Of a stretch of 64,000 bases of DNA, positions 966 through 20,297 are shown in pieces (position 1 is the stretch's first letter; every line of letters begins with the position of its first letter). The position numbers were made by a program, and so were the translations under genes. The notes below the pieces were generated by a model. The model had not been told where the DNA came from. It ran no database searches and saw only the letters and a program-made list of their open reading frames with translations. This DNA comes from Streptomyces liliiviolaceus (lineage in GTDB: Bacteria; Actinomycetota; Actinomycetes; Streptomycetales; Streptomycetaceae), in NCBI RefSeq assembly GCF_018070025.1, contig NZ_JAGPYQ010000001.1, positions 7,626,001 to 7,690,000 on the forward strand. The letters run 5' to 3'.

Positions 966-978
966 CGGGTCGATCCGC

Positions 979-2913
979 TCACCCGAAGTCCGGGATGAGA
1001 GCCAGCGTTTTCGGGTCGCCTGCCAGGTGAGTGATGAACCGCCGGTCCAGGAACCGGTTGCCGCGCTCACACGTCGTCTCGGACACGAACAGGCAGGCGT
1101 GGCAGGCGGCACCGTGCAGGAAGTCCTCCGGCGCCTTGGGAAGACGCTCGCCGCACAGCGGGTCCGAGGAGCACCGCCCCGCCTTGTACAACGCCGTACG
1201 TACGATCCTGGCCAGCCGGTTCTCCCCGGTGCTCGGGTCCTGATCGGCAAGGGAGACCAGCCCGCCAAGCGTGCCCTCCGAGTCCGGGACGGCCGTGTAG
1301 ATGAGGATGCCTGTCCGCCGCTCCTCAGCGTCGCCGCTATAGATCCGCTCGGCCAAACTCGCCGAGTTGTAGCCGCACTCCATCGCGATGGTGCGGATGA
1401 GTAGATGGGAGAGCGTGTGCAGAGCGATGTAGCGACTACCCGGCCAGCCTTGCATCAGGTCGGAGCCGTCCTGGATTCGTTCCGACCTCCGGTGCTCACG
1501 GAACCGGCCGAAAGCCGCGGCGTGTGCGGCGAGGGCGTCACTCGACGCGACCCGCTGCTCCCACTGCTCGATCAGGTGATCGTCCACCCGCAGGAACAGC
1601 CCCTCGCCACGCACCTCGCTGGCCGGCACCCAGCCGCGCTCGCGCCGCCCCAGGTCCACACGGGTGACCAAGCCGGGGTCCTCCGGATCGGGGGCGTCGA
1701 GCCGAGTGAAGCCGATAAGGGCCCGCACCTCGCGCAGTCGTTCCGCCTGCCGAAGCTGGGAGAAGACGGTGGACAAGGGCCCGCTGAGCGAGGCGTCCAC
1801 CAGCGCGAAGTCTTCAGTCGGGTCGGCGGTCTTCGCAGCGGACAGCACCTGCCACTCGGGGGTCAGCAGGTCCGGAGGGCCTGGCGGCTGCTCGGTCTCG
1901 CCCGCATCGCCCGACAAGGCCGCGCGGTAGGCGGACATGGCCTGCCAGACCTGTCCGGGTTCGTAGTCGCGAAGGTAGCGGTGGTGCTTCGACTTCTTGG
2001 CGAACATGGCGATCTCCGCCTCATCCTCGAAGTCCTCCAGGTCCGGCCAGCGTTCCTCGACGAGCTTGCGCAGCGAGTCGGTCCCGGTGTCGGGCAGTGC
2101 CAGTGCGCTGAGCGTCACGGGGAACCACTGGTTGGACGCGCCCACGACCAGCAGATACGGCGTCTCGTCGCAGGCGTCATAGACGCCGTCGAACTGCGGG
2201 TGCCGGCCACGGCAACGGGGCAGGTTCTCGCGGCCCTTGTCGCCCATAGCGTCCCGGATGTTGCGCTTGGCCTTCTTGCATACCAGGCATTCGAGAGAAA
2301 CGTTGGCCGCGAGGTTGCCCCCGTTGTCGCGCATCCGCAGCGTCGGATACGTCGTGTCGGGGCAGGCGCGGCCCTCGTGCACGAATTCCGTGTACGGAAA
2401 CTCGTCGAGGTGTCCTTTGACGCAGGCGAGCGCGAAGCGGGCGGCCACGGCCAGAGGCTTGCGGCCCTTCTTCTTCCGGTAGCAGTTCTCGTGGTAGAAG
2501 CGCGCCTCGTCGGGGCGGCGCGCGTTGATGTTCTCGAACCCCCACTTGCCCGAGCCCAGGGACGCCAGCTCATTGCACGCCGTACAGCGCAGCCACTGCG
2601 GGAAGGGGGTCACGGGCACACCGATCCGTGCCGCGTTGCCCTTCGGGTCGGTGTCGGTGCCGGGGATCCACGGCGCGGCGCGCAGCTCTCCAATCTGGTC
2701 CGCGCCGTAGCGCCGCAGGGCTCGATTGACGGCTCCACGGAGCCGGGGCTCCTCGATCACCGGATCGGGCACACCGGCGTAGTTCCAGTGGTCGAGGCCC
2801 TTGACCATGACGGAGAAGTTGGGCAGGTCGACGAGAGCGCCGACGCCACCAGTGAACATGAGATGGCTCGGCCGTACCGCCCCCACCCGCCTGAAGTATC
2901 CGCCGCCGCTCAT
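979..2913 (-). CDS. drmB: DrmB, DUF1998-domain DISARM protein
   Basis: DrmB is a core DISARM component containing a DUF1998 domain; in published DISARM work it forms a complex with DrmA that binds DNA. The 644-aa product starts MSGGGYFRRVG at an ATG that overlaps the drmA stop by four bases (ATGA), so the two are translationally coupled; the longer open frame upstream is a shadow of drmA. The C-terminal third carries the DUF1998 signature (HTLSHLLI, then ILIYTAVPDSEGTLGGL) and a cysteine set (RCSSDPLCGERL ... CHACL) fitting a metal site. Further cysteine pairs (CTACNE, CLVCKK) lie in the N-terminal half. Normal length, no disruption seen. Confidence 0.9.
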   Translation of the reverse strand: MSGGGYFRRVGAVRPSHLMFTGGVGALVDLPNFSVMVKGLDHWNYAGVPDPVIEEPRLRGAVNRALRRYGADQIGELRAAPWIPGTDTDPKGNAARIGVPVTPFPQWLRCTACNELASLGSGKWGFENINARRPDEARFYHENCYRKKKGRKPLAVAARFALACVKGHLDEFPYTEFVHEGRACPDTTYPTLRMRDNGGNLAANVSLECLVCKKAKRNIRDAMGDKGRENLPRCRGRHPQFDGVYDACDETPYLLVVGASNQWFPVTLSALALPDTGTDSLRKLVEERWPDLEDFEDEAEIAMFAKKSKHHRYLRDYEPGQVWQAMSAYRAALSGDAGETEQPPGPPDLLTPEWQVLSAAKTADPTEDFALVDASLSGPLSTVFSQLRQAERLREVRALIGFTRLDAPDPEDPGLVTRVDLGRRERGWVPASEVRGEGLFLRVDDHLIEQWEQRVASSDALAAHAAAFGRFREHRRSERIQDGSDLMQGWPGSRYIALHTLSHLLIRTIAMECGYNSASLAERIYSGDAEERRTGILIYTAVPDSEGTLGGLVSLADQDPSTGENRLARIVRTALYKAGRCSSDPLCGERLPKAPEDFLHGAACHACLFVSETTCERGNRFLDRRFITHLAGDPKTLALIPDFG

Positions 2914-5900
2914 GAACGCCGCCCCCTGGCCGTGCCGTTGTCGTCGCCGTTCCCGTCCCGGTCCGGCATCTCGCCGTGCTCGTCGCCGCTCGCAGTGTCC
3001 GGGCCGTCTCCACCCTCGGCGGGCGGTCCGAACTCCCAGGGGTTTCCGGCCGGAGCCGACAGCACAGTGTCCGCAGACAACAGCATGTTGATCTCGTTCT
3101 CCGTCTCGCGCATCGACTGCGGGACGGTGAGCACGTCCCATCCACTGCCGTCCGCGTTGCGCAGCAGGCCCAGCACCGTCTGCTTCTGCCGGGTCTGTCC
3201 CCGGTAGCCAAGCCTGCCCTGCTCACCCTTCTTGGCCGTCCAGGCGTCGCGCAGGGCATCGATCCGCTCGGCGAGGTAACCGCGCGCCCGGTCCCCGTCC
3301 ACGGCCTCCGCGCGCGCCAGCATCCGCCGCTCGACGTCCCGCACACGCGGGTCGTCGAGATCTACCCCCTCCGCGTCCACGTTGTCGGAGAACTCGTCGC
3401 AAGCCTGCCGCACGGCGGAAACATACGTGGCGGTGGTGCCCCGGTCGAGCGCCCGCCGCGTGAACGGGGTCACCGACAGCGCCTCGACCTGCCGGTAGAA
3501 CGTCGCGTGGTAGTGCTCGAAGTCCTCGAAGTGAGCGAGATCCCGGGGCCTCGCCCAGTTGTAGAGCGTGATCACGATGCCGGGCCGCTTGGCCTGGCGT
3601 CCGACACGGGAGGACGCCTGGATGTACTCGGCGGTGTTCTTCGGCTGTCCGGTGACGACCATCAGGCCGAACCTTGAGACGTCCACGCCCACCTGGAGCA
3701 TCGACGTGGCCAGCACGTGGTCGACCGGCCTGCGGTGCAGCGGGGCGGGCAGGACCCGGGGCTGACGAGCCCTTCCGGCGTCCCGCAGCTCGTCGACGAT
3801 CGCCTTCTTGCGCACCGACGTGTCGTGCTCCGGGTTGAAGCCGATCTCCAGCCGCTTGAGGGTGGCACTGATCTCCGTCGACGAGATACGGGAGGTCAGC
3901 TCCTGAAGGTTGAGCATGTCGGTGTCGCGCAGCAGCCGGTTGGCGATGCCCCGGCGGCTTCCGTTGGCCCGCAGCCGGCTCGGCACGTCGTCGTCCAGGA
4001 CACGTCGCATACCGGCGAGTTCTTTGGTCGCGTTGAAGTATCCGACCACCGTCATGTAGGGATCGGCGGGAGCGCCGTAGAGGTCGAACATGTGCTGCCC
4101 GGCGAGTAGCAGGATCTCCGCGACACGGATCTCGGCGGCCTTCATACGCACCCCGTGCGCGCAGACACCGTAGTAGCGCCGCCCGGGGTTGTCACGGGTG
4201 ACGTCGACCTGCTGGGAGAAGAAGGTGTCGCCGACGTCGACCACCTGCGGCGGGAAGATCGCCAGGTCCCGAGCGAACACCCCGAGCACCTGGGCGCGGG
4301 CGTTGCGGGTGGTGGCCGTCGACGCGACGATCTTCGGCCCGGTCTCCCTGAGCTGCCCGTGGGCGTCCTTCGTCCGCCAGGTGCACAGCTGGTCGACAGC
4401 CGACTCGAACAACCCCACCGTGGTGCCCAACGCCCCGGAGATCAGGTGCAGCTCGTCCTGGATGATGAAGTCCGGAGGCCGCAGCCGCCGTAGCATCGGC
4501 CGACTGGTCACGGCCTTATGCCGGTCCTTAGCGTTGTGCCGGGACCCGCAACCGATCTCCTCGTCAAGGTCGTCGTGGCGGTAGCCGTGCCGCTCGCAGT
4601 AGGCGCTCACCCGCCCGAACAACATTCCCGCATAGCCGCGCCACGGCAGCTGGGCGAGCTTGTCCACGGTCGCGATCAGCAGGCTCGGCACCAGCCGGTA
4701 GATCTCCTCGTCGACCGTGAGGATCGGCAGCCCCTCACCCCGCGCCCGCATCCGGGAAAACGGGCAGGGGCCCGTGTCCTCTCCCCGGGGGCAATACACG
4801 ATGACACGCCGCCGTACGTCGTCCGGTGCCACGTCCCGCCACGCGCGCAGCTCCTCGCCGCACCACGGGCAGGACAACACCTGCAGGACGTTCGCATGCC
4901 GCCCCGAGGCGGACTCGTTGGCCTCGGCGATCTGCTGCGCCGCGTCTCCGTACCAGTTCGGCGAGACACCGGCACCGACCCACAGCCCAATACGGAACGG
5001 CTTGCTGCCCCAGACCGCCTCATCCTCCCTGCGGAGCACCTCCGTCGCGCACACCAGGGCGGAGGCGCGCTGGAACTGCTGGGCCGTCAGCAGCCGCAGC
5101 GTGTACCGCATCAGTACGGCGACGCCGTCCCGCCCCTCGCGGGCGTCCTCGCCCTCCCCGACGACCTTCTGGAGCCGCCGGATGGCGAACGTGTAAGCCG
5201 TGAGACCGAGATACGCCTCCGTCTTACCGCCACCGGTCGGGAAGAACAGGAGGTCAACCGTGGCAGTGCTGTCCGCCCTGCGCTCCTTGTGCGCGGGGTC
5301 GGTGAGGGAGCACAGGTTGAGCAGCACGAACGCCAGCTGGAAGGGATACCAGCTCGCGGCCAAGGGACCGCGTGCATCGACCTCGGCGTAGGCCGCCGCG
5401 TACGTGGGCGGCTCCTCACCGCCCTCAGCTCGCAGCGCGGCCGTCGCCGTGGCCCGACGCTGCATGGCCATGGCCCGGTTGGCGAAACGGAACGCCCGTA
5501 GCGCGTCGCGGTCGGTGTGCAGCAACTCGATGCCGAGGGCGATCCGGCCGCACGCGTCACGGGCCTCGTCGACCGCCCGCAGCGCGGTGGTCCGCAGTTC
5601 GCCCGACAGCGACTCCGCCTTGACGGCCTGCTGTTGCAACCAGCCGTCGTAGCCGTCGGCCAGCGGCTGCAGGGCCTTCAGCAGCTCGTCGCGCCGCTCC
5701 CAAACGGCCAGTTCGGCGAGCTTGTCCATGCTCACCTCAAGACCGGCGAGCAGCGGCTGCCGAGCCGTGTTCGGCGCGACCGTGGCCGGCACGTCCTTCA
5801 CCGGCAGCCAGGTCGTCTCCAACCTGACCGCGCGCCGCCCCTTCGGCAGGACACTCGCGTGTACGGCGACGTTCCGTCCGTGCGCGTGCTTCAACTCCTG

Positions 5901-6752
5901 CCGGTACAGCAGCCGCAGATGCTGTTCCTCGGGGTTCTCCAGGATGTGGCCAGGCCCATCGGACAACGGGTCGTCGATCGGCAGGAAGACGCTGGACTGC
6001 CCGTCGAAGGAGGTGACTTCCAACTTCGTCTGGAACAGCCATTGTCCGTCCCGTAGTTCACGGGACTCCTCCAGCGCGTTGATCAGCGATACGTCGACGA
6101 AGCGCAGGTTATCCGCGCCATCGACGGTACCGGGGCGCTCCCGTACGTGTACGTCGAGCCGGATGCAGGGTAGGTCCGGGTTGGTGTCGTCGACGCCCTC
6201 CAGAACCTTGCGGACAGTGCCCGGCGAGTCGACGTGAATGTCCACCGCGTACCGGACGGGCTCGCGCGACCACGCGCGCACAGCCCGGCCGTCGTCGGTC
6301 TTACTGTCGCTCTGCCGGTATCGGCCCCACGACGCGACGACGCTGAGAATGCCCACATCGGCCGGCACCAGGAAGCTCAGCCCCATGGACGACGCCCACA
6401 GCCGTCCGGCAGCCTGTGGAGTGAGTCGCTCCGCGAGCTCAGGGTCTCGCCCGTCCCCCTCAGCGCTGACCTCGGTCTCCGCCTGGCCCGCCGCTACGTT
6501 CACGGGCGCGTCGGTCGGTGCGGGCCGGGGCCCAAGAAGTCCGACGAGGTAGCGGTCACGGGGCCCCGCACTGTGTGGGGCCAGCGCCTCGGTCTCGTCC
6601 GCCCACGGCCCCAGCAGATCCCGTGAGATCAGATCGCCGAGCTCCTCCCGGACGTCGTACGACGTCCCGGACCGAAAGGTCTGCGGGACCTCGTCCACGG
6701 GGTGGGGAACGCCCGGCTCCGGAACAGGGGCGTTCTGTGGTGACGACGGCAT
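2910..6752 (-). CDS. drmA: DrmA, DISARM superfamily II helicase
   Basis: DrmA is the large helicase of DISARM and, with DrmB, the core that engages incoming DNA. The 1280-aa protein has a Walker A motif PTGGGKT at about residues 505-511, a DELH box (QDELHLISG) and a helicase C-terminal half with VGRQAKRPG, as in the family. I chose the ATG at 6752 (MPSSPQNAP) because AGGGAGG lies 8-14 bases upstream; the open frame extends 30 codons further without such a site. It is followed by drmB with a 4-bp overlap. It is separated from drmMI, its usual operon partner, by a recombinase gene and a silent specificity cassette, so it probably needs its own promoter in the roughly 190 bp upstream. Confidence 0.9.
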   Translation of the reverse strand: MPSSPQNAPVPEPGVPHPVDEVPQTFRSGTSYDVREELGDLISRDLLGPWADETEALAPHSAGPRDRYLVGLLGPRPAPTDAPVNVAAGQAETEVSAEGDGRDPELAERLTPQAAGRLWASSMGLSFLVPADVGILSVVASWGRYRQSDSKTDDGRAVRAWSREPVRYAVDIHVDSPGTVRKVLEGVDDTNPDLPCIRLDVHVRERPGTVDGADNLRFVDVSLINALEESRELRDGQWLFQTKLEVTSFDGQSSVFLPIDDPLSDGPGHILENPEEQHLRLLYRQELKHAHGRNVAVHASVLPKGRRAVRLETTWLPVKDVPATVAPNTARQPLLAGLEVSMDKLAELAVWERRDELLKALQPLADGYDGWLQQQAVKAESLSGELRTTALRAVDEARDACGRIALGIELLHTDRDALRAFRFANRAMAMQRRATATAALRAEGGEEPPTYAAAYAEVDARGPLAASWYPFQLAFVLLNLCSLTDPAHKERRADSTATVDLLFFPTGGGKTEAYLGLTAYTFAIRRLQKVVGEGEDAREGRDGVAVLMRYTLRLLTAQQFQRASALVCATEVLRREDEAVWGSKPFRIGLWVGAGVSPNWYGDAAQQIAEANESASGRHANVLQVLSCPWCGEELRAWRDVAPDDVRRRVIVYCPRGEDTGPCPFSRMRARGEGLPILTVDEEIYRLVPSLLIATVDKLAQLPWRGYAGMLFGRVSAYCERHGYRHDDLDEEIGCGSRHNAKDRHKAVTSRPMLRRLRPPDFIIQDELHLISGALGTTVGLFESAVDQLCTWRTKDAHGQLRETGPKIVASTATTRNARAQVLGVFARDLAIFPPQVVDVGDTFFSQQVDVTRDNPGRRYYGVCAHGVRMKAAEIRVAEILLLAGQHMFDLYGAPADPYMTVVGYFNATKELAGMRRVLDDDVPSRLRANGSRRGIANRLLRDTDMLNLQELTSRISSTEISATLKRLEIGFNPEHDTSVRKKAIVDELRDAGRARQPRVLPAPLHRRPVDHVLATSMLQVGVDVSRFGLMVVTGQPKNTAEYIQASSRVGRQAKRPGIVITLYNWARPRDLAHFEDFEHYHATFYRQVEALSVTPFTRRALDRGTTATYVSAVRQACDEFSDNVDAEGVDLDDPRVRDVERRMLARAEAVDGDRARGYLAERIDALRDAWTAKKGEQGRLGYRGQTRQKQTVLGLLRNADGSGWDVLTVPQSMRETENEINMLLSADTVLSAPAGNPWEFGPPAEGGDGPDTASGDEHGEMPDRDGNGDDNGTARGRRS

Positions 6753-6940
6753 ACGCGTATCCCTCCCTGGGCGCGAACCAGCACCCGCGAACAACGATAG
6801 GGGGACCCACTGACATTGGTGGGGTCCCGCTGAGCCGCACAAGGCCGTGCCGGTTCGGCAACGACTCGAAGCTGCCTCGAGGGCCCAGCTCGTTTCGTGG
6901 ACTCGCCGAGCTACCGCAAGCCCCGCGGTGGGACACCACT
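6753..6940. promoter_or_regulatory. drmA: Candidate promoter region of drmABC
   Basis: This 188-bp gap separates the end of the recombinase gene from drmA. It holds the drmA ribosome-binding site at its left end. Because the recombinase and the inverted cassette interrupt the operon, drmA-drmB-drmC must be read either from here or by transcription through the recombinase. I cannot name -35 and -10 boxes with confidence. Confidence 0.35.
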
Positions 6941-7896: not shown

Positions 7897-8162
7897 CGTC
7901 TGGTAGCGAACAAGGGCCAGTCGTTCCAGGGGTCCAACGTGCTGGGGAAGGGCTTCATCGTCACCCCTGAACAGGCCCACGCCCTCATCCAGCGCGACCC
8001 TCGCAACAAGGACGTCCTCTTCCCCTACCTCAACGGCGAGGACCTCAACTCCCGCCCAGACTGCTCAGCCAGCCGCTGGGTGATCAACTTCCACGACTGG
8101 AGCGAGGAACGGGCCCGGGGATACCCCGAAGTATTCGCCATCGTCGAGAGAGACGTGAAACC
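7897..8162 (+). repeat. 266-bp inverted repeat, left copy
   Basis: By base-by-base reading this segment is the reverse complement of 9667-9932, with no mismatch that I could find over 266 bp. It encodes about 88 residues of the drmMI C-terminal region (RLVANKGQSF to ERDVKP) in the same codon phase as the expressed copy. Sequence diverges abruptly on both sides. Perfect identity between coding copies implies recent or continuing exchange. Confidence 0.95.
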
Positions 8163-8919
8163 CGAACGACTCAAGAACACCAACCGTCAACGTCGCGAGA
8201 TCTGGTGGCGGTTCACCCGTCCTGCAATGGATCTTTACCGTGCCATCTCCAACTTGGACCGTGTTCTGGTGGTAGCGCTTGTCAGTCGAACGGTCATGCC
8301 AGCTCGTGTACCCAGCCGCCAAGTCCTCTCTCATAAATTGGGAGTCTTCGCTACGGCCGAAGATAGCGACCTCGCCCTACTTTCGAGTTCATTCCACTCA
8401 ATTTGGGCATGGCGCAATTCATCAACGATGAAGGCGGATCTCAATTACTCTCCGTCCGATGTTTACGAGACATTCCCTCGGCCTGCCACCACTGCCGAAG
8501 TCCGAAGCAATGGGGGAATTCTCGACAGGCTGAGATTTGATGTGATGATTGCCAGAAGCGTAGGACTCACAAAGCTATACAACATGGTCCATGACCCTGC
8601 AGTGAAGGATAGCGACATCGAGTCTCTGCGCGAGAATCACCGGAAGATCGACCAGTCTGTACTCGAGTCCTACAATTGGCAAGATGTCGACCTCGCTCAC
8701 GATTTCTATCCAAATCGACAGGGTATGCGATTCACGGTCGCACCATCGGCTCAGATTGAAATCCTAGACAGGCTTCTTGAGCTTAACCATGGTCAGCATG
8801 ATAATAACTCACCAAAAAATTCCCCCCATGCAATGGATCGGCATGCCATTGCGGCCGGATCGGCAGTTCATGGTCAGGAACGTCTAACTCCGGTACGCGA
8901 CGGGGATACTCTGTTCTGA
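7897..8919 (+). pseudogene. drmMI: Silent alternative drmMI 3' end (target-recognition cassette)
   Basis: The open frame (TTG at 7882 through TGA at 8917-8919, 345 codons) encodes only a methyltransferase C-terminus: 88 residues identical to drmMI, then about 250 residues that are related but clearly different (for example MKADLNYSPSDVYETFPRP against LKSDLQYTPSDCFETFPMP in the expressed copy). There is no methyltransferase domain, no ribosome-binding site and no promoter, so it is best read as a silent cassette rather than a gene. If the segment between the repeats inverts, this half joins the drmMI N-terminal part in frame and gives a 1442-aa protein. Its GC content is visibly lower than the flanking defence genes. 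Confidence 0.9.
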
Positions 8920-8946
8920 CATACTTCTCAGAACAGAGTATCCCCG
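8901..8946. terminator. Palindrome at the meeting point of the two drmMI 3' ends
   Basis: A perfect 19-bp stem (8901-8919 with 8928-8946) and an 8-base loop. Each arm encodes the final residues GDTLF and stop codon of one cassette, so the two convergent ends share the same last codons. The hairpin can act as a bidirectional terminator for whichever cassette is expressed, and because it is symmetric it survives inversion unchanged. Confidence 0.75.
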
Positions 8947-11900
8947 TGGAGTGCGACGACTCCTTCACTGTCGCGCATCAGTGATTGCTCCAGTCGTTCA
9001 CGGCTTGCCACATCTGCTTCTCGATTGAATCGCGCATGGTTGAGCTCAAGGAGTCTGTCCAGGATCTCATTTTGCACAACTGGAGCGACAGTGAAGCGGA
9101 CCCCATTGCGGGTTTCATGGAATCCATGACCGAGGTCGAGGTCGCCCCATTCGTAAGCTTCAGCAACCGCCTCATCGACAGCTTTATGACACTCACGAAG
9201 TTTACTTATGTCACTAGCAGAAACCTTTGGATCATTGACCAGGTTATAAAGTTTCGTAAGGCCGCATTCCCGGTTCCGCATGATTACAGTGCGAGTTTCA
9301 CTTAGGTTTTCCCCAAGAGATTCCAAGAGAGGGAGATGTTGCGGCATGGGAAATGTTTCAAAGCAATCGGACGGAGTGTACTGAAGGTCGGATTTCAGAG
9401 TCGCCGAATATTTCCATGCCCATAGTACGTGAATGCTTGAGTTCAGTAGGGCCATTACATCAACACGGTCACTAGCAAAGAGAACGATCTTCTCGTTCAA
9501 TACCTGACCCGTGGGCACGATGGTCGCCATGGCCGTTCGGCTCACCCGTGCTACCACCAGGACACGATCGAGATCCGCAATCGCCCTGTAGAGCTCAGGA
9601 CGGCTTCTTTCGTAGAGCCACCAGCGCTCTCGGGCATTCTTGCTGTGTGTAACGCGAAGGCGGATCGGTTTCACGTCTCTCTCGACGATGGCGAATACTT
9701 CGGGGTATCCCCGGGCCCGTTCCTCGCTCCAGTCGTGGAAGTTGATCACCCAGCGGCTGGCTGAGCAGTCTGGGCGGGAGTTGAGGTCCTCGCCGTTGAG
9801 GTAGGGGAAGAGGACGTCCTTGTTGCGAGGGTCGCGCTGGATGAGGGCGTGGGCCTGTTCAGGGGTGACGATGAAGCCCTTCCCCAGCACGTTGGACCCC
9901 TGGAACGACTGGCCCTTGTTCGCTACCAGACGGTACGGCCGCCCCGAAACCCGAGACCGCGGATCAAGCGACGAAGTGATACCCCGGACCGCGACGCCGT
10001 CCAGCACCCGAGTGGCTTCCGCACCCAAACCCGGCTTGGTGGTCCACACAGCGCAGTACTCCAGCGCCGCAGACCGCGAAGGCCAGCGAGCGCTCTTTAC
10101 TGCTCGACGTACCTGGATGCCATCGTCGAGTAGCTGGTCAAGGCCGACCTCCCTAGTGTCGCCCTGGGCAAGGGTGTTGGTAGCGATCAGGCCCGTCTGG
10201 CCGCGCTCGCTGAGCAACTGGTGGGCCCGGAGCTCGAAGTATGCGACGAGGTCCGCGCTACCTCGCTGCCCTCGCCCCAGTCCAAGCACGAGGTACTCGC
10301 GGTATGCCTGCCCGAGCGCCCCCGTCAGTTTCTGGCCGCCGAGGAAAGGAGGGTTGCCGATGATGGCATCGAAGCCGCTCTGGTCCGGCTCGAAGACCTC
10401 GGGGAAGACGAGAGGCCAGTGCACGGGGAGGCGAACGAAGCCGTCTGTGGGGAGATCCTTGCTCAGCCAGTCCAGAGCGCGCCTCCGCGCGTCGTGAATC
10501 ACGGGGTCGGAGTCCCGGACCGACTCCGAGGCGACCATGCCGGCCAGCTCCGCAGCCTGGATGTAGGTAGCGCTCTGCAATGAGTCCCCGCCACCCGCTG
10601 AGGCGAGACCAGCCCCCGTCGTGAGGTCGCCGATCAGCCGCAGGCGTTGCAGGTGTTCGTTGGTGGCCGCGAGCAGGCGCCGCTTCTCATCCAGGTCGGC
10701 AATGGTGTCGCTCTGGATTCCGGCGATGGCCTGCCGGTTGTCTGCCGCGCCGTGGACGCGAGCACGCGCACGCTCGGTCCACCCCTCCTCGAAGGCTCCC
10801 CGGTGGAGTTTGCGGCCCGCCTTCGGATCGAGATGGACGCTCTCGATCTGCTCCAGGTTGGCGATACCCAGCAGCGAGTCCCCCGCCACCAACCGGTCGT
10901 CCAGAAACGTGAACGGTCGTCCCGGGTCCATGGAGATCAGCCACAGCGACAGCTTGGCCATCTCCACCGCCATGGGATTGATGTCCACCCCGTACAGGCA
11001 GTGCTCGATGATCAGACGTCGGGCGCGGACCATCACCGGGTCGCTCTCGGCGTCCGCCGCGGTCATCGCGCCCGCCTGGTCGCGGTGGCTGCCGCGGAAG
11101 GCCAGGGCCTCCTCGTCCTCTGCCTCGACCCAGGTGTCGACGAGACGGTCCGCAAGGTAGCGGCAGGCGGCGACAAGGAAGGCGGCCGAACCCATCGCGA
11201 TGTCGGCGATCTTAAGCTTCAGGATGTCGTCCGCGCCGATGAGCTTCCACTGCTTGTCGTCCGCAGTCTGGAGCGGGCCCGGACGGTAGACGAGTGGCTC
11301 CAGTGCTCCCACGGCGACCTGCTGGGCCAGGACACGCGGCGTGTAGTGGGTGCCGGTGTTCTTGCGGAGGCGGGACTCTGTGACGTACAAGCCGTCCTCA
11401 GGGATCACCACCGGCAGACCGCGAAGGTCGTCGCGGAGGAGGCCGTGGAAGGGGAGGATGCGCTCGGCCAGGTCGCGGTCGTTCTCAGTGACCGCGAGCA
11501 GGCGGTGGGTCGCCTTGCCCCGCACCTGGTCGTCTCCAGGGGCGAGCAGCTTCTCCATCTTCGACGCCGCGGCCGGCGGCCTGGGATCCTTCAAGTGCTC
11601 GTACAGCTTCTTCGACAAGCCCGGTAGATTGGACTTCTGACCGGAGATGGCGCGTGCGCCCACTCCGAACGGGGCAGCCAGTTCCTCCAGTTCGGTCAGG
11701 CTCACCTCGTGTTCCAGGCCGGGCTTGCCGATGAGCCCGAGCACGGTGTCCTGGGCGCGCTTGCCGTCGTAAGAGAGGAGGCCCTCGTAGACGTAGCCGA
11801 TCTGCTCGACGTCGAGGGCGCGGAACGTCAGCCGGCGCCGCTCCCTGTTGACGACGACGAACTGCACCGAGTCGAGGACGTGCAGGACGGTGCGGTCGTC

Positions 11901-13238
11901 GATCGGGAGGAGGGAGGTGTGGCCGTCGGACACCCGCGTGGCGTCGTCGTCCGTGGCGTCTGCGCCCTCCGGCACCGCCTCCAGCCAGGGGAAGCGCTTC
12001 GGGTCGAAGATCGAGCCGTCGTACGCGGGCAATGTGAGCAGGGGGTGGTTCACTCCGCCGTGGACAGCATGGAAGAGGGCGATCAGCCGGTGCCAGGCGG
12101 CGGTGGTGTGGTCCAGGGAGTCCTCGCCGTCCGCGCGGCGGCGTTTGTCCAGCGTCTCGTACAGCCGTCCAGCCGAGTACGCCTCCGCGTAAAGCTCGTT
12201 GTCAGCGGGCAGTAGGCCCCGTTCCTCGGCGAAGAGGAGGAAGACGACGCGCATCATGACCGCGACGGCGCCCCGGTAGACCTCGCTCGCCGGTACGCCT
12301 GACAATCCCTTACCGCCGCGTTTGACCATCCTGGCCTCGGCGCGGCCGATGGAGTCCACCAGGAGTTCGACGGCCTGGCGGACCTGGATGCCGAGGGCCT
12401 CGGTGACGTCTTCCTGGCCATCCAGGCTCTCGCGCAGCAGCGCCGGGAGGAGTTCGTCCGCCGGGCGTCCGAAGAACCGGCCGCGGCGGAGGAGGGACAC
12501 CCAGGCGCGGACCGCCACTAGGTCTGCCGCCTCGTTCCAGGCAATGGTGTCGAAGGTGGCGCTCGTCGTGACGCCGCCGGGCGGTGCCCAGACCAGGGAC
12601 CACCAGCGGCCGTCGGTGACCAGGCCCAGCTCGACCCCGTGGTGGCGCAGGACATGGGCGAGCCGGTCGACTCCGCTCGCTGCCCAGGAGTCGTCCCTGA
12701 TGCGGCGGGTCGGCACGGTGTCGGGTGGCAGGACCAGGCCGAGGATCGGTACGTGCTGGACGCTGGCAGAGGTGTCCGGTTCGGCGGTCGGGTCGGTTCC
12801 GGGGCGGACGAGGGCGAAGTCGGGGCGGACGGTGATGTCGGCCCCGGGCGGGCTGACGGCGAACCGATCCAGCAGCGTGTCATCCTCGGTCAGGCTCTCG
12901 CCGTTGTCGCCGAACTGTCCGGCGCCCTCCCGCAGATGCAGGGCGTCGTCCCATTCCAGCAGGGTGCGCAGCTGGAAGCCGATCCAGTCGAGGCGGCCGG
13001 CGCCCTTGCGGTCGTCCTGCCAGATGCCGTGGTGGAGACGGATGTCGGCGCGACGGCCACTGGGGACGCCCTCCAGTTGTGGCCAGGTGCGTAGCAAAAC
13101 CGGCAGAGTGAGGAACGGGCCGGACACCTCGACGAGGTTCAGCCAGTCCAGGTGCTGCTGCTTACCGTCGGACGCCTTCGCAGCACGGATCGTGGCGGCG
13201 GAGGGGCGGCGGCTTCCAGAACGGGGCATGGGGCTCAT
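8928..13238 (-). CDS. drmMI: DrmMI, DISARM class 1 adenine-N6 DNA methyltransferase
   Basis: DrmMI marks host DNA by adenine methylation so that DISARM spares it; its presence with DrmD defines class 1 DISARM. The 1436-aa protein has a long N-terminal region, SAM motif I (DIAMGSAAFLVAA, about residues 680-690), a DINPMAVEMAKLSLWL motif and catalytic NPPF at 962-965. The target-recognition region follows. From residue 1103 the gene enters the 266-bp inverted repeat, and its last about 250 residues lie inside the invertible segment. The ATG overlaps the drmD stop by one base (TGATG); ATG at 13229 is also possible. The architecture resembles BREX PglX, but the neighbours are DISARM genes. The variable C-terminal part is lower in GC than the rest. 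Confidence 0.92.
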   Translation of the reverse strand: MSPMPRSGSRRPSAATIRAAKASDGKQQHLDWLNLVEVSGPFLTLPVLLRTWPQLEGVPSGRRADIRLHHGIWQDDRKGAGRLDWIGFQLRTLLEWDDALHLREGAGQFGDNGESLTEDDTLLDRFAVSPPGADITVRPDFALVRPGTDPTAEPDTSASVQHVPILGLVLPPDTVPTRRIRDDSWAASGVDRLAHVLRHHGVELGLVTDGRWWSLVWAPPGGVTTSATFDTIAWNEAADLVAVRAWVSLLRRGRFFGRPADELLPALLRESLDGQEDVTEALGIQVRQAVELLVDSIGRAEARMVKRGGKGLSGVPASEVYRGAVAVMMRVVFLLFAEERGLLPADNELYAEAYSAGRLYETLDKRRRADGEDSLDHTTAAWHRLIALFHAVHGGVNHPLLTLPAYDGSIFDPKRFPWLEAVPEGADATDDDATRVSDGHTSLLPIDDRTVLHVLDSVQFVVVNRERRRLTFRALDVEQIGYVYEGLLSYDGKRAQDTVLGLIGKPGLEHEVSLTELEELAAPFGVGARAISGQKSNLPGLSKKLYEHLKDPRPPAAASKMEKLLAPGDDQVRGKATHRLLAVTENDRDLAERILPFHGLLRDDLRGLPVVIPEDGLYVTESRLRKNTGTHYTPRVLAQQVAVGALEPLVYRPGPLQTADDKQWKLIGADDILKLKIADIAMGSAAFLVAACRYLADRLVDTWVEAEDEEALAFRGSHRDQAGAMTAADAESDPVMVRARRLIIEHCLYGVDINPMAVEMAKLSLWLISMDPGRPFTFLDDRLVAGDSLLGIANLEQIESVHLDPKAGRKLHRGAFEEGWTERARARVHGAADNRQAIAGIQSDTIADLDEKRRLLAATNEHLQRLRLIGDLTTGAGLASAGGGDSLQSATYIQAAELAGMVASESVRDSDPVIHDARRRALDWLSKDLPTDGFVRLPVHWPLVFPEVFEPDQSGFDAIIGNPPFLGGQKLTGALGQAYREYLVLGLGRGQRGSADLVAYFELRAHQLLSERGQTGLIATNTLAQGDTREVGLDQLLDDGIQVRRAVKSARWPSRSAALEYCAVWTTKPGLGAEATRVLDGVAVRGITSSLDPRSRVSGRPYRLVANKGQSFQGSNVLGKGFIVTPEQAHALIQRDPRNKDVLFPYLNGEDLNSRPDCSASRWVINFHDWSEERARGYPEVFAIVERDVKPIRLRVTHSKNARERWWLYERSRPELYRAIADLDRVLVVARVSRTAMATIVPTGQVLNEKIVLFASDRVDVMALLNSSIHVLWAWKYSATLKSDLQYTPSDCFETFPMPQHLPLLESLGENLSETRTVIMRNRECGLTKLYNLVNDPKVSASDISKLRECHKAVDEAVAEAYEWGDLDLGHGFHETRNGVRFTVAPVVQNEILDRLLELNHARFNREADVASRERLEQSLMRDSEGVVALHGDTLF
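9667..9932 (-). repeat. drmMI: 266-bp inverted repeat, right copy (inside expressed drmMI)
   Basis: Partner of 7897-8162 in opposite orientation. The outer boundary at 9932 corresponds to drmMI codon 1103 and the inner boundary at 9667 falls within a Pro codon (CC shared, third base differing), so both copies meet their cassettes in the same phase. The 1504 bp between the repeats (8163-9666) is the predicted invertible segment. Confidence 0.95.
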
Positions 13239-16200
13239 CAGTAGGCTTCCTTGGCGGGGATGACGAAGACGACAGCGACCGGGAAGAGGTGGTCCTGCGG
13301 GGCGCGGTAGCGGGCGGCGATCGCGGCGAGTTCGCGCTCGCGTTCGTCCTCCACTCCGTCGAGCCGGGCGCGCCAGCGTTTGCGGTCGTCGGCGAGCTGG
13401 CGGCGTTCGTCGGGATCCTGTAGCTCGTCCAGGCCAAAGAGCGTGTCCATCCCGCCCGTCGGGGAGGCCGCCGTGACGGAGGAGGTCTCGCCGAGCCGGT
13501 TCCGCAGAGTGCGCTGGAGTCGGTCGAGGGTGGCATTGATGCGCTGCTCCTCATCGGCCTGGCGCTCGGCCAGCCGGTCCATCAGGGACACCTTGCGTTC
13601 CTTCCCGCGCGCGTCGACGGACTGGGTAAGGCCCTCGTAGGTCTTCGGCCAGCTCTGCTGGAGCCGGTGGAGCAGGCGCTCCTTGGCGGGGCGGCCCTCG
13701 GTGAGCGCGCGGTCCAGGATCGAGGCGACCGCCTCCACTCCGCGCAGCCGACGCTGCCAGCCGTTGTCGCCGAGCCAGCCGCCCGCGTGCAGGATCTCCT
13801 CATGGAGGCGCTGCCCGTCCGTGCCGACCAGCACGAAGCGGGCGTATGCGCCGACGAACGTGGTCTCCAGGGCCGGGTCGTCGCTGACGACGGCCGTGAT
13901 CCGGCGCAGGTCGACGTTGTCCGCGTTCCATACGGCTGCGCGCAGCAGCCGCGTCGACATGGCAACCAGCGGATGGTTCAGATGGGCCAGCACGATGTCG
14001 GGGCGTCCCAAGGCTGCCTGTGCGTCGAAGGTGACCGGGCGCAGGACTTCGGGGCGGAGCTTGTCTGGCAGGCCGCGGGTGGCGCGCTCCCACGAGCCGG
14101 TCAGCGAGGGCACAGTGTAAAGGCCCTGCCGGAAGTCGTCCTCGGACGGCGCGTTCTCGTCGAGGCACGGTACGAGGGGCTGCTGGCGGGCCAAGTTCAG
14201 CGCGGTGTTCACCACGCGGGCGACCCGGTCCGGGGTGATGCCGAGTTCTACGGTCGTCTGCTTCAGCTGGGTGCTGAGCCGCCGCACCTGCTCAGTGACG
14301 TTCTGCTCAGCGTCCACCTTGCCGCCCGTGGGACGGCTCTTGATCTTCTTCGCGCGGGCGTGCTCGATGTCGAAGTCGCTGAGCTGGCCCGTCATCCGCA
14401 GCTGCACCTTCTCAGCGAGTACGGCGTTGACCTCGCCGAGGTCCTCCTCCATCTGCGCGACTTTCCTCGCGATACGGGCGAGAAACTCCAGGTCGGCCTC
14501 GTACACGTCCGTCCTGGCTTTGTCCCAGGCTGCGCCGACGAAGTGCATGATCTGCGGGTTGTATCGCTGGCCGTAGCGGTCGATGCGGCCGATGCGCTGT
14601 TCGAGTTTGTTGGGGTTGAACGGGATGTCATAGTTGATCAAATGGCGACAATGATCTTGGAGGTCGATTCCTTCGCTGGCGGCGTCAGTCGCGATGAGGA
14701 TGCGCACCGTGCCCTCAGGACTGGTGGGCGGTTCCTGGAAGGCGAGCCGGATTTGCTCGCGCTCCTCGGCGTTCTTCCCGCCGTGGAGGGTGAGGACGCG
14801 GCCCACCTGGGCCAGGCCCTCCTGCTGGAGCAGGTTCAGCAGCCAGTCCTGGGTGTCGCGGTACTCGGTGAACACGACGACCCGCTCGTTCCCCCATCTC
14901 CCGGCGGTGAGGCAGATGGCCTTGAGGGTCTTGACGAGCTCCTTGGCCTTGGCGTCGGGGGACGCCTGGTGGGCCTGGCCCCAGCGGGCCATCCGCTCCA
15001 GCAGCTCGGCCTCTTCCTCTGACGATCCCGGGGTGACCGTAGCGGCACGGGTGATCGCGTCGTGCTCAGCTTCGGCCAGTTCCTCGTCGTCGAGCTCGGC
15101 GGCGTAGTCCTCGTACTGCGTGATCCACAGCGGGGTCACGACCGGGGCCGGAACCTCCTTGTTCCCGCCTGGCTTTGCCTTGGCGCGTACTGATTCGAGG
15201 TGGACCGCGACGGTGTGCGCGAAGGAGGCGGGGGACGAGAACAGCCGCTTCTTCAGCAGCAGGGTGACCAGGTCGACGGCTTTCCGGCCGCCGCGCCGGT
15301 CAGGCGCGACGCGCTTCTTGCGCAATTCGGCGTAGCGGGTGAGGAGGGCGTGGATCTCGCGCTCGGTGTCGGGGTACTCGACGGGCAGTGCCTTCGACTC
15401 GCGGACATGAAAGCGGGGGTTGCCTTCCTCGTCGGTCACGGAGGTCTTCAAACGTCGTACGACGGTGTCGTCGAGGGCGACCTTGTCGGGTTCGCCGCCG
15501 CGGAAGAAGCGCTGGTTGTCGATCAGTTCCAGCAGAGCCGTGTACGACTCCTGGTAGCCGTTGTGCGGGGTGGCGGAAAGGAAGAGCCGGTGCTCGAAGT
15601 GGGGGGCGAGGCGTCGGATCAGCTTGGTCTGCTGGGAGTCGACGGCGTAGATCTGCTTGGGCGCGCTCGGGGCGACATGGTGCGCCTCGTCCAGGATCAG
15701 CAGATCGAAAGTACGGCGCCCGGGGCGACCCGGCAGCTCCGTCGCCCCTCCCGGGGGCAACACCTCGTCGATGAGCCGCTGCGCCTTGGGCGTGCGCAGC
15801 CAGGGGAGGCTGACGATGGTCAACGGGAATACCCGGAACGGGTTGGCGGCGCTGCTGTGCGTTCGGCGCAGCTCGGCGCAGCAGGCAGAGTCGACCACGG
15901 TAAAGTCGAGGCCGAACTTCTCGGCCATCTCATCTCGCCATTTAAGGGTGAGCCCCGCCGGGCAGACGACCATGACGCGGTGGGCCCGGCCGCGCAGCCG
16001 CAGCTCCTCGGCAACCAGTCCGGCTTCCACGGTCTTGCCGAGACCGACATCGTCGGCAAGCAGCAGATTGACGCGGGGTGCGCCGACGGCGCGGGCGACC
16101 GGTTCCAGCTGGTACGGCTCGATGGCCACCCCTGACCGGAAGGGCGCCTGGAGCGTCTTCACGTCGGCGGAAGCGACGGCGGACCAGCGGACGGCGTCGA

Positions 16201-16486
16201 GGAAGGCCGCGAGCTGCTCCGGCGGGTCGAACGCTCCGGAGGAGGCGTCCGGGAGGGAGCCGGCGGGGAGGACGCGGCGCCCCGGCTCGACCTCCCAGAT
16301 CACGGAGAGGGTGTCGCCGTAACGGCCATCGGCGACGGACTGCAGATGCACCACGGTGACATCGCCAGCAGGGGCGGCTTCGACTCCAGACACCACCCAG
16401 TTCTGGCCGCGTACCTGGACGAGAGCGTTCTCCTCAGGCGGCGCGACTATTGCGGAGGCTTCGGAAGTACGGGTGGTTCCGGGCAT
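13238..16486 (-). CDS. drmD: DrmD, SNF2-family DISARM helicase
   Basis: DrmD is the SNF2-like ATPase that defines class 1 DISARM. The 1082-aa product shows Walker A as DDVGLGKT (about 145-152), DEAH (about 266-269), SATPHNGY, and a C-terminal helicase lobe with ATDAASEGIDLQ and QRIGRIDRYGQ. The C-terminal 400 residues are charged and partly coiled. I chose ATG 16486 because GGAGGA lies seven bases upstream, inside the GTG codon start of the longer frame at 16501. It overlaps drmMI by one base, so the two are likely co-expressed. The 130-bp gap upstream, less GC-rich than the genes, presumably contains its promoter. Confidence 0.9.
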   Translation of the reverse strand: MPGTTRTSEASAIVAPPEENALVQVRGQNWVVSGVEAAPAGDVTVVHLQSVADGRYGDTLSVIWEVEPGRRVLPAGSLPDASSGAFDPPEQLAAFLDAVRWSAVASADVKTLQAPFRSGVAIEPYQLEPVARAVGAPRVNLLLADDVGLGKTVEAGLVAEELRLRGRAHRVMVVCPAGLTLKWRDEMAEKFGLDFTVVDSACCAELRRTHSSAANPFRVFPLTIVSLPWLRTPKAQRLIDEVLPPGGATELPGRPGRRTFDLLILDEAHHVAPSAPKQIYAVDSQQTKLIRRLAPHFEHRLFLSATPHNGYQESYTALLELIDNQRFFRGGEPDKVALDDTVVRRLKTSVTDEEGNPRFHVRESKALPVEYPDTEREIHALLTRYAELRKKRVAPDRRGGRKAVDLVTLLLKKRLFSSPASFAHTVAVHLESVRAKAKPGGNKEVPAPVVTPLWITQYEDYAAELDDEELAEAEHDAITRAATVTPGSSEEEAELLERMARWGQAHQASPDAKAKELVKTLKAICLTAGRWGNERVVVFTEYRDTQDWLLNLLQQEGLAQVGRVLTLHGGKNAEEREQIRLAFQEPPTSPEGTVRILIATDAASEGIDLQDHCRHLINYDIPFNPNKLEQRIGRIDRYGQRYNPQIMHFVGAAWDKARTDVYEADLEFLARIARKVAQMEEDLGEVNAVLAEKVQLRMTGQLSDFDIEHARAKKIKSRPTGGKVDAEQNVTEQVRRLSTQLKQTTVELGITPDRVARVVNTALNLARQQPLVPCLDENAPSEDDFRQGLYTVPSLTGSWERATRGLPDKLRPEVLRPVTFDAQAALGRPDIVLAHLNHPLVAMSTRLLRAAVWNADNVDLRRITAVVSDDPALETTFVGAYARFVLVGTDGQRLHEEILHAGGWLGDNGWQRRLRGVEAVASILDRALTEGRPAKERLLHRLQQSWPKTYEGLTQSVDARGKERKVSLMDRLAERQADEEQRINATLDRLQRTLRNRLGETSSVTAASPTGGMDTLFGLDELQDPDERRQLADDRKRWRARLDGVEDERERELAAIAARYRAPQDHLFPVAVVFVIPAKEAY

Positions 16487-16616
16487 GCGGACATCCTCCA
16501 CTATCGCTATCGGCGAGACAGCGGTGCCTACCAGAGTGCTTCAAATTGACGAGCGATTCGTTCGTTGACCTGGTTCACATATTTTTTCTCCTGGTTGTGG
16601 ATGGGTCGTCGGCGGA
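16487..16616. promoter_or_regulatory. drmD: Intergenic region upstream of drmD
   Basis: A relatively AT-rich 130-bp stretch, including a run of T residues at about 16584-16589, separates the kinase stop from drmD. It is the likely site of the drmD-drmMI promoter and of a kinase terminator. I cannot define boxes reliably. Confidence 0.35.
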
Positions 16617-18275
16617 TCACTGCGGAAGGCGGAGCGCGCGGGTCAGTCTGCCCAGGCGACTGACCAGACGCTCCACCTCGGCATGGGCGGAATGGTCGGG
16701 AGGCAGCGCGGTCCGTTGGTCGTGGGCGAGGTGGCGCAGAGCCTCCAGGGCTTCACCAGCCGAACCTGAGGCCGCCAGGAGGGTGGCGATGTCCCGGCGG
16801 GTCTCCAATACCTCCAGATCCAGCGGGGGAAGCACCTCCTTCTGGAGATCGAGCGCCTCGCGAAGCTCCAGGAGGGCGGCGGAGTTGTGCCCGAGCCGGC
16901 CAAGGCAGCGGGCTGCCATCACCCGGCAAGCCGCGAGGTCCGCGTCCGGCGCGGAACGAGTCGACACGAGGGTTTCCGCGAGCTCCAGGCAGCCCTCGCG
17001 TACCGCTTGCAATTCCTGCGCTTCGAATTGCAACCGAAGGATGGCCAGTCGGCGGGAAATGACCTCCGGATGGGAGGAGTCGAAACGGGGCAGCACCTCG
17101 TTGAGATCCTTGCCCAGCAGCTCCAATGCCTGTGACAACCGTCCTTCTGCCACAAGGCGTTGCGCGCGCTCGCGCAGGTCCACCGACTCCGCAGGCAACC
17201 TGGCCCCGGAGGTGGACGGCGGTTGCGCTGGCCGAACGAGAGGTTGTGCAGTTGCGAGCGGGGTCGTGGCGTGTTCCGGAACGGGTGCGTGCGCTTTGTC
17301 CGGAGGAGGATCGTTCGGAAGGTCGGTGCCATCGTGCGGCAGGCGCGCGGGGGCTTTGCCGGGCCGCCTCGGAGTTCCGGTGCGGGTGGCCTTCGGCACG
17401 GCCTGCTCGGCCCAGGGCGCGAGTGCCTCCCGGACTTCGGCTGCATCCGCGGGTCGGTCCTCCGGGTGCTTCGCGAGTAAGCGGGAGACCAGGTGGCACA
17501 GTTCGGCTGGTGCGTCGTCGCGCAGCCGATCTAGGGGTACCGGAGTATTGGCGATGTGCTGGACCACCAGGGCCAGCGGCTCGTCGGCCGTGAACGGCGG
17601 TCGGCCGCCCAGGATCTCGTACAGCACGCAGCCCAGTGCGTACAGATCGCTGAGGGGAGTGGCCGCCTGCCCCTTGCCTTGTTCTGGAGAGATGAAGCCC
17701 GGGGTTCCGGCCACCATTCCCGCGTCGGTCAACCGTGGCCCGTCCGGTGGTTGCAGGGCGGTGGCGATACCGAAGTCGAGGACGCGTACCGTGCCGTCTG
17801 TTGTGAGCATCACGTTGCGAGGCGTCAGATCCCGGTGGACGAAGCCGCGTCCGTGAGCCTGGACCAGCACGGAGCACACCTGGGCGCCCACCGCGGCGGC
17901 CCACTCCACGGGAAAGGGTCCGCGCTGGGCCACCAGCCGGTCCAGCGTGTGTCCGTACACGCGCTGCATGACCAGATAGAGCCGACTCGCTCGATGGGTG
18001 CCCGCATCATGGATGACCGGTACGTACGGGTGCTCCAGCTTGGCCATCAGTCGTGCTTCTCTGGTGAAGCGGACGACGGCGGGGTCCTGCGGATCAAGCC
18101 TGCGTGGCACCTTGGAGACAGCCGTCCCTGGTGTCAGCAGTTTCACCGCCACAGACCGGTCCAGCCGCTGATCGTACGCCGCCCACACCTCGCCCATGCC
18201 ACCTCTGCCGAGCAGCTCCGCCAGCTCGTAGCGGCCGTCGATCAGTTCGCCCTTCGCCAGGTGATGGTCCCTCAT
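16617..18275 (-). CDS. Serine/threonine protein kinase (PknB-like, soluble)
   Basis: A 552-aa Hanks-type kinase. The N-terminal 270 residues hold the full catalytic set: glycine loop GRGGMGEVW, VAVK lysine, HRDLTPRN catalytic loop, DFG, and the APE equivalent TPGFISPEQG. After a proline-rich linker the C-terminal 170 residues are helical and leucine-rich, similar to TPR-like repeats, with no transmembrane or PASTA segment. Start ATG 18275 has GGGGAAG upstream and overlaps by four bases the stop of a kinase-like fragment. It lies just upstream of drmD in the same direction. Kinases accompany some Streptomyces phage-defence loci (PglW, Stk2), so a role in controlling DISARM is possible but not shown. 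Confidence 0.88.
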   Translation of the reverse strand: MRDHHLAKGELIDGRYELAELLGRGGMGEVWAAYDQRLDRSVAVKLLTPGTAVSKVPRRLDPQDPAVVRFTREARLMAKLEHPYVPVIHDAGTHRASRLYLVMQRVYGHTLDRLVAQRGPFPVEWAAAVGAQVCSVLVQAHGRGFVHRDLTPRNVMLTTDGTVRVLDFGIATALQPPDGPRLTDAGMVAGTPGFISPEQGKGQAATPLSDLYALGCVLYEILGGRPPFTADEPLALVVQHIANTPVPLDRLRDDAPAELCHLVSRLLAKHPEDRPADAAEVREALAPWAEQAVPKATRTGTPRRPGKAPARLPHDGTDLPNDPPPDKAHAPVPEHATTPLATAQPLVRPAQPPSTSGARLPAESVDLRERAQRLVAEGRLSQALELLGKDLNEVLPRFDSSHPEVISRRLAILRLQFEAQELQAVREGCLELAETLVSTRSAPDADLAACRVMAARCLGRLGHNSAALLELREALDLQKEVLPPLDLEVLETRRDIATLLAASGSAGEALEALRHLAHDQRTALPPDHSAHAEVERLVSRLGRLTRALRLPQ

Positions 18276-18805
18276 CGTCTTCCCCGCGCCCTTTTGTCGA
18301 CCCGGGTTGCCAGCGGTCGCGCACAGGCCGGGAATCGGAGTGGGCGCGCAATGTCCATGCCCGGGCCCGGGACGGAATCCCACGGTGTGTCAGGTGCGGA
18401 CGCAGGAAGATGCGGGGCCAGGAGGGACTCCACCGAGGTGGCGTCAGTGTGCCGCTCGCCGGGGTGCTTCGCGAGGAACCGGAGGACCAGATCTTCGAGG
18501 TCTGGTGGGACGTCGTGGCGGAGTGAGGCGAGGACCGGAGGCGAACTGGTCCGGTGCGCCAGCATGACGAGCGCTGGTATCGGGGCGGTGAACGAGGGCT
18601 CTTCGGTCAGTATGAAGTGCAGTAAGCAGCCCGGCGAGTGGAGATCGACACAATAGTCGGCGTGAGAATGGGGACTTCCTTCGAGATGCTGCATCACCTT
18701 CCCTCCACCGTCGTTGTGCACTGGCGCGACGTAGGGATGGCCGGCTCCGGCGACAGAGGCGATCTCACGCCGGGAACGCCGACCGATGCGCTGTCCCCGA
18801 GCCAT
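18272..18805 (-). pseudogene. Truncated kinase-like gene
   Basis: The frame from ATG 18805 encodes about 177 aa that align by eye with parts of the neighbouring kinase: AGHPYVAPVHNDG matches the region before the hinge, and a later stretch (LHSPGCLLHFILTEEPSFTAP ... VLRFLAKHPGERHTDA) matches the C-lobe. The glycine loop, catalytic lysine, HRD and DFG segments between and before these are missing. It appears to be an internally deleted duplicate. Its stop overlaps the intact kinase start (ATGA), so it may still be translated as a leader or pseudokinase fragment. Confidence 0.55.
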
Positions 18806-20087: not shown

Positions 20088-20279
20088 TGACACGAAGCCC
20101 AGCCAGCAGCACCGCGCCATTCACTGGCTTCGCTTGCAACGGGTTGCCGGCCGGGAACCCTCGTGAACGTACCCCGTTCTCCTCGAAGCCACTCGGTACA
20201 GAAGCCGAGGGACCCATTCAGGGGGTTTGCCACACGTCCGCGGCATTTTCGGCCACTCACCGGCGGCGCCCGGCTGCGC

Positions 20280-20297
20280 CGCGTAACCTCACGGGCA
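20280..20297 (+). promoter_or_regulatory. Possible leaderless promoter of jetA
   Basis: The sequence TAACCT at about 20284-20289 fits the TANNNT -10 consensus and ends seven bases before the ATG at 20297. No ribosome-binding site is visible before this ATG. Together these suggest a leaderless transcript, which is common in Streptomyces. No clear -35 box is seen, so this is an inference. Confidence 0.35.

Follow-up and report, generated by a model that had tools for sequence, protein, structure and literature searches.

The 64,000-nucleotide (nt) stretch of the Streptomyces liliiviolaceus genome analysed here (GCF_018070025.1, contig NZ_JAGPYQ010000001.1, positions 7,626,001 to 7,690,000; hereafter the window) carries a DISARM operon whose adenine methyltransferase gene, drmMI, very probably forms part of a programmed, recombinase-driven inversion switch of methylation specificity. 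PADLOC profiles place the genes in the order drmD-drmMI-cassettes-tyrosine recombinase-drmA-drmB-drmC, with the core genes drmA, drmB and drmC all present and both drmD and drmMI matched at E=0. Class 1 DISARM is defined by drmD together with the adenine methyltransferase gene drmMI, and by these profile matches the operon is of that type. A BREX system would have PglX as its best methyltransferase family, whereas here DrmMI scores 1721.9 bits and PglX 38.9 bits. We infer that the recombinase catalyses flipping in the living strain, that a flip would change the methylation motif, and that a second mark would bring a protective benefit.

The segment in question, about 1.5 kb long, is bounded by two inverted-repeat arms of 266 nt each, which a renewed string comparison found to be 100% complementary and 1504 nt apart; a perfect inverted repeat of 266 bp is not a product of chance. 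The arms enclose two alternative drmMI 3' ends, the expressed cassette A and the silent cassette B. As assembled, drmMI (8928–13238, minus strand) encodes 1436 amino acids (aa), and inverting the segment in silico yields a frame of 1442 aa that ends at 8910 and keeps its start. Residues 1–1191 are common to both forms and the last 245 (expressed) or 251 (inverted) differ, the codon phase being identical where each arm enters its cassette. Cassette B is open across 251 codons and, since the flipped product stays in frame, is therefore a complete alternative C-terminus. Inverted repeats thus bound alternative in-frame gene ends, as expected of programmed inversion, and the GNPPF motif of DrmMI lies upstream of the variable part. 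A sequence-only reading of this DNA had proposed the identical repeats, the shared phase with a full-length frame kept on inversion, the exchange of about the last 250 residues, and their position downstream of the NPPF motif; string comparison, in-silico flip and DrmMI sequence bear it out on each of these points. A further, 25-nt inverted repeat (92%) within the segment encodes the C-terminal end common to both cassettes, whose terminal residues are GDTLF. The LF C-terminus recurs in 137 of 176 listed homologs and, as judged from these, is a conserved tail.

Between the cassettes and drmA lies the tyrosine recombinase gene, whose product has the residues R128, K155, H207xxR210H211, H234 and Y243 invariant in three aligned sequences; these we take to be the catalytic residues of the family. 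As the sequence-only reading had stated, an adjacent site-specific recombinase is therefore present with its predicted active site intact (PF00589 and the invariant catalytic-type residues). Its nearest solved structures, by sequence, are Gp33 (5vfz), an XerC-like protein and XerA, and the gene is the sole match to the recombinase profile in the window's genome at E<=1e-5. Matches in a phage collection (468 records) all fall below 60% identity, the ten listed of the 468 being annotated as integrases, and the 5000 records listed from a plasmid collection are likewise all below 60%. The drmMI body had no near DNA match in the plasmid collection.

Across genomes, this recombinase goes together with the arms. 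DrmMI-like proteins matched in 35 of 392 same-genus genomes (E<=1e-30), and all 23 genomes with a match in a second genus sample of 286 had already been found in the first. Inverted repeats of at least 20 nt and more than 150 nt apart occurred at 4 of 31 DrmMI loci, two of these being the window itself and the others lying in genomes G110 and G225. The recombinase profile at E<=1e-40 picked out the same three genomes among the 392, and all three carry arms and a silent cassette. At that threshold it matched 2 of 296 relatives from 72 genera (window and G110) and 1 of 296 genomes of a class sample from 114 genera (the window's own), all of them among the same three genomes. These multi-genome searches scored 2–8 candidates per genome, and partial and weak matches can be missed. 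In G110 the whole operon is present at 93–98% protein identity. G225 is more distant, with a DrmMI 57–63% identical, a recombinase 65.6% identical and outer arms of 41 nt, yet it has a silent cassette and the same order, with drmA, drmB and drmC following after about 8 kb.

Scanning species genomes for the recombinase added six named Streptomyces loci (L054–L059); the scan relied on two exact peptide patterns, and diverged recombinases would escape it. Five of the six were evaluable (L054, L056, L057, L058 and L059), and all five possess arms. Four of them show a readable silent cassette, and in L057 an assembly gap covers it. The contig of L056 begins inside an arm, its drmMI body lying outside the sequence read, and L055 breaks off within the arm region, next to a DrmMI arm fragment. 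With the window included, nine recombinase loci were read, of which eight were evaluable, eight had arms and seven a readable silent cassette. The sequence-only reading had suggested searching other DISARM loci for a recombinase with an inverted drmMI fragment, and arms were indeed found in 7/7 evaluable loci among the eight other than the window, the silent cassette being readable in six. By comparison, 18 fetched DrmMI loci free of the recombinase gave no inverted repeat of at least 25 nt, no recombinase hit and no partial second DrmMI copy. One of these 18, locus L043 (G122:C85:164000-183900), holds two full-length DrmMI homologs on opposite strands, about 4 kb apart.

The pairing of recombinase and DrmMI probably reaches beyond Streptomyces, because 8 of 41 recombinase clusters on contigs longer than 10 kb have exactly the longest-contig size of one of 157 DrmMI clusters, among them Nocardiopsis sp. 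FR4 and Actinocorallia sp. A-T 12471. When the lengths were shifted by 1–500 bases, such coincidences averaged 0.03 and never exceeded 3. The comparison left out P0087, and there is no recombinase contig of P0087's size. Draft contigs of L055, L056 and L057 end in arms or have an N-gap over the cassettes, and because of such breaks invertible drmMI loci are probably undercounted in short-read assemblies.

The exchanged part is also where target recognition would reside, as the sequence-only reading had argued. Both cassettes match the MmeI_TRD domain by sequence and the MmeI fold by predicted structure, pointing to a target-recognition domain of the MmeI (IIL) type; the expressed-cassette model is of low confidence ahead of residue 110, the point at which its MmeI match begins. 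In structure searches CamA, M.BseCI and similar adenine methyltransferases ranked below MmeI, and we read these matches as the same domain class. The MmeI contacts for base pairs 1, 3, 4, 5 and 6, as given in excerpts of PMC4833311, fall in the exchanged part. Both cassettes have K-x-D, and by analogy with MmeI the two marks would be expected to have their last base in common and to differ at earlier bases. A flip is thus predicted, by domain match and modelled fold, to swap most of the recognition domain.

Natural proteins carry either end. We searched a protein collection with the inverted and the expressed DrmMI, scoring by their C-terminal parts and listing the best 120 of 1215 and of 1966 matches. 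P0001 and P0053 (Streptomyces sp. FT1) agree at 1186 of 1192 leading residues (99.5%) and at 37 of the next 38, then at only 99 of 204; the last part of P0001 matches the window's silent cassette at 95.8% identity and that of P0053 the expressed one at 94.2%. On this alignment, the two proteins differ in the pattern that an inversion beyond residue 1230 would produce, and both C-terminal ends are used in nature on near-identical bodies. As they come from different strains and were compared as proteins, the pair shows the use of both ends rather than flipping in one cell. Similarly, in a comparison of 13 of 14 cassettes (that expressed in G225 being absent), the cassette that L059 expresses shares 78% identity with the silent cassette of the window, and 50% with the window's expressed one, over the first 150 alignment columns.

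The arms themselves have been compared among eight loci. In the seven with long arms, within-genome matching runs span 234–334 nt and are exact in six, with one mismatch in G110, while the arm sequence of the six other long-arm genomes differs from the window's by 1.9–21.1%. Arm ends were defined by the match itself, so only the run length is informative; long runs within genomes despite such differences between them suggest that the arms were kept alike after divergence. The compared arms overlap in a common 38-nt stretch that may hold the crossover site and ends at the codons for DVKP. One Val codon of this core is GTA in six of eight loci, against 6.8% of upstream Val codons (7 genes), a single position chosen after the fact. 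No clear dyad was apparent by eye in the candidate crossover region.

In the switch that we propose, the tyrosine recombinase would recombine both inverted arms, most likely within this 38-nt stretch, flipping the segment and replacing the last 245 residues of DrmMI by 251 others with the frame kept. A population would then hold cells with two DNA marks, and phage grown in mark-A cells would count as self only for mark-A cells and would still be exposed to DISARM in mark-B cells. Methylation of self DNA is reported to repress DISARM (PMC9142583), and with a second mark present in some of the cells, phages that had acquired the first could not escape throughout the population.

Several observations weigh against this proposal. 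The window and G110 have both cassettes in the same orientation, and the orientation difference among close relatives that the sequence-only reading had named as a test is seen at the protein level only, between P0001 and P0053. Residues 1193–1230 of those two proteins match each other but neither window cassette well (45–51%), so that the two proteins do not correspond to a plain inversion of the window's two cassettes. For P0125 (S. olivaceus), 9 contigs carry one and the same sequence, which may or may not be invertible. The expectation that synonymous codons would be better kept in the core was rejected, codon identity there being 0.59 against 0.63 in the body (15 pairs of 6 loci, pooled). 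RecA by itself could suffice to recombine arms of 266 bp. Finally, DISARM can still restrict phage without methylation sites, as described in PMC9142583, so the mark may matter less and the benefit would be weakened.

The strongest competitor, which we nonetheless consider unlikely, is that homologous recombination between the arms, by RecA or gene conversion, draws on the silent cassette as a reservoir, with the recombinase a mobile-element bystander. Arms of the length seen in seven of the eight loci would be enough for homologous exchange, their near-identity within genomes suggests a homogenisation that site-specific inversion alone does not give, and the kinship of the recombinase to Gp33 and to phage proteins annotated as integrases would suit a bystander. 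However, the recombinase stands beside drmMI arm sequence in 9/9 loci read and is absent from the 18 arm-free loci, its HxxRH...H...Y motif is kept in 101 of the 103 relatives found in the protein collection at E<=1e-50, and G225 preserves the order of arms, silent cassette and recombinase although its outer arms are so short.

Still less probable is a dead or very rare switch in which the silent cassette is the inactive remnant of a duplication. The common orientation of the window and G110 and the single sequence of P0125 would agree with this, but the silent cassette has remained an open frame, is predicted to fold like MmeI and has 96.2% DNA identity to its counterpart in G110, much like the drmMI bodies (96.0%), and P0001 expresses a close homolog of its larger part. 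An artefact from a collapsed or chimeric repeat, to which the broken or gapped draft contigs of L055, L056 and L057 might point, can practically be dismissed, as the arrangement is internal to contigs in G000 (8.4 Mb), G110 (9.9 Mb) and G225 (8.5 Mb), the window's own lying in the 8.4-Mb contig of a 4-contig assembly, and recurs in other assemblies with different sequences. Comparison with relatives favours real switching.

The inversion switch may further act on a composite recognition domain, which is the more surprising part of the finding. Among 176 distinct listed proteins, 15 match the body of the window's DrmMI at 92% identity or more, making 17 with the window and G110; two of them, P0008 and P0038, are short proteins whose body matches cover 734 and 1017 aa only. 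Over the 136 pairs of these 17 proteins, identity averages 95.4% in the body (minimum 92.2), 62.2% at residues 1192–1230 and 56.2% in the next stretch. Greedy clustering (at 80% and 72%) gave 5 types of module 1 and 10 types of module 2 in 15 combinations, including one complete four-gamete set (P0065 or P0125, P0045, P0025 and P0008): P0065 shares 100% of module 1 and 51% of module 2 with P0045, and 55% and 96%, respectively, with P0025. The variable part is, as these alignments read, a mosaic of two reassorting modules. Their break falls at DRVLVVA, just before the MmeI pair-3 contact, within an uncertainty of one residue. In L054 the 334-nt arms extend through module 1, and inversion there would therefore change module 2 alone.

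DRVLVVA is common to both window cassettes, with an exact DNA match of only 11 nt, and the exact runs at this position are 20 nt in L058 and 14 nt in L056. Tentatively, and with the odds somewhat against it, the locus could be a two-point shuffler, in which the outer site at DVKP would swap both modules and the inner homology at DRVLVVA only the large one, making four DNA marks possible. The small module (about aa 1192–1230) would align with the MmeI contacts for base pair 1 and the large one (from about aa 1231) with those for base pairs 3–6, all four marks having the same base-pair-2 contact. The two-module mosaic would in any case offer a natural library linking recognition-domain sequence to motif.

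If the inversion switch operates as proposed, a heritable and reversible change of mark would amount to bet-hedged immunity, in which phages bearing one mark would still be vulnerable in some of the cells; swapping the self mark probably makes phage adaptation harder. It would also make the dependence of DISARM on the specific mark of DrmMI testable with two isogenic forms differing only in that mark; these would be expected to differ in their protection against phage raised on one form or the other.

Around these genes (Table 1), Wadjet-type jetA, jetB and jetC adjoin the operon at 20087–27527 on the plus strand (PADLOC 6.4e-217, 1.6e-122 and 0), and together with it form a defence island. 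Directly upstream of drmD lies a protein-kinase gene (16617–18383, minus strand; PADLOC PD-T4-6/mad6-like). Among the 18 recombinase-free loci, 12 likewise show kinase matches ahead of drmD-drmMI and no DrmA hit within the sequence retrieved, and such loci may represent a different, kinase-linked system.

Table 1 Features of the DISARM operon and its invertible segment (positions within the window)
Feature	Position	Strand	Evidence or remark
drmC, PLD-family protein	198–1268	-	PADLOC DrmC 8.3e-109; Pfam PLDc_2 2.3e-10
drmB	979–3141	-	PADLOC DrmB 6.9e-63; Pfam MZB (MrfA Zn-binding) 4.9e-11
drmA helicase (longest frame; true start may be further in)	2910–6842	-	PADLOC DrmA 4.9e-287
Tyrosine recombinase, likely invertase, 287 aa	6941–7804	-	Pfam PF00589 2e-9
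Left inverted-repeat arm, silent side	7897–8162	+	100% complementary to 9667–9932
38-nt stretch, left copy (overlap of compared arms; may hold crossover site)	8125–8162	+	Arm alignment of 8 loci
Silent drmMI 3' cassette B, in frame with arm	8163–8919	+	Module 1 8163–8277; module 2 8278–8919
25-nt imperfect inverted repeat, common C-terminal end	8895–8952		8895–8919/8928–8952
Expressed drmMI 3' cassette A	8928–9666	-	Module 2 8928–9548; module 1 9549–9666
38-nt stretch, right copy	9667–9704	-	Arm alignment of 8 loci
Right inverted-repeat arm	9667–9932	-	drmMI codons about 1103–1191
Constant part of drmMI, adenine-methyltransferase domain	9933–13238	-	PADLOC DrmMI E=0; Eco57I 1.7e-19; MmeI_Mtase 2.1e-13
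drmD, SNF2-type helicase	13238–16501	-	PADLOC DrmD E=0; SNF2-rel_dom, Helicase_C

Among DISARM systems, that of Serratia sp. SCBI is described in excerpts of PMC9142583 as having drmA, drmB, drmC and an N6-methyladenine (m6A) methyltransferase with the motif ACAC(mA)G, along with a 5-cytosine methyltransferase. It resembles the present operon in the first four of these genes and differs in the additional cytosine enzyme. Going by its description, we know of no invertible cassette or recombinase in that system. A survey of gene-altering programmed inversions by Milman et al. (2023, Nucleic Acids Research (NAR)) reportedly names type II restriction-modification genes as a new inversion target, and drmMI genes could be among its loci.

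Closer parallels lie outside DISARM. In invertible hsdS genes of type I restriction-modification systems, inverted repeats lie within the specificity gene, accompanied by silent cassettes and in many cases by a neighbouring tyrosine recombinase, features that the drmMI locus shares. HsdS forms a subunit of its own that holds two full recognition domains, whereas drmMI would exchange one recognition domain inside the methyltransferase itself, apparently split into two modules. S-subunit invertons are reported in passages of PMC11892184. Phase-variable pglX is likewise the adenine methyltransferase gene of an anti-phage system made up of several genes, BREX, and it too has a partial second copy beside a recombinase: in Lactobacillus rhamnosus BREX, a full and a partial PglX are separated by an integrase (excerpts of PMC7513527), and the pglX arrangement is a known counterpart (PMC7513527, PMC11341690). 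An invertible DISARM gene was not described in those portions of the open-access literature that our search covered. Invertible hsdS and pglX are already known; what would be new here is a DISARM methyltransferase as the probable target of inversion.

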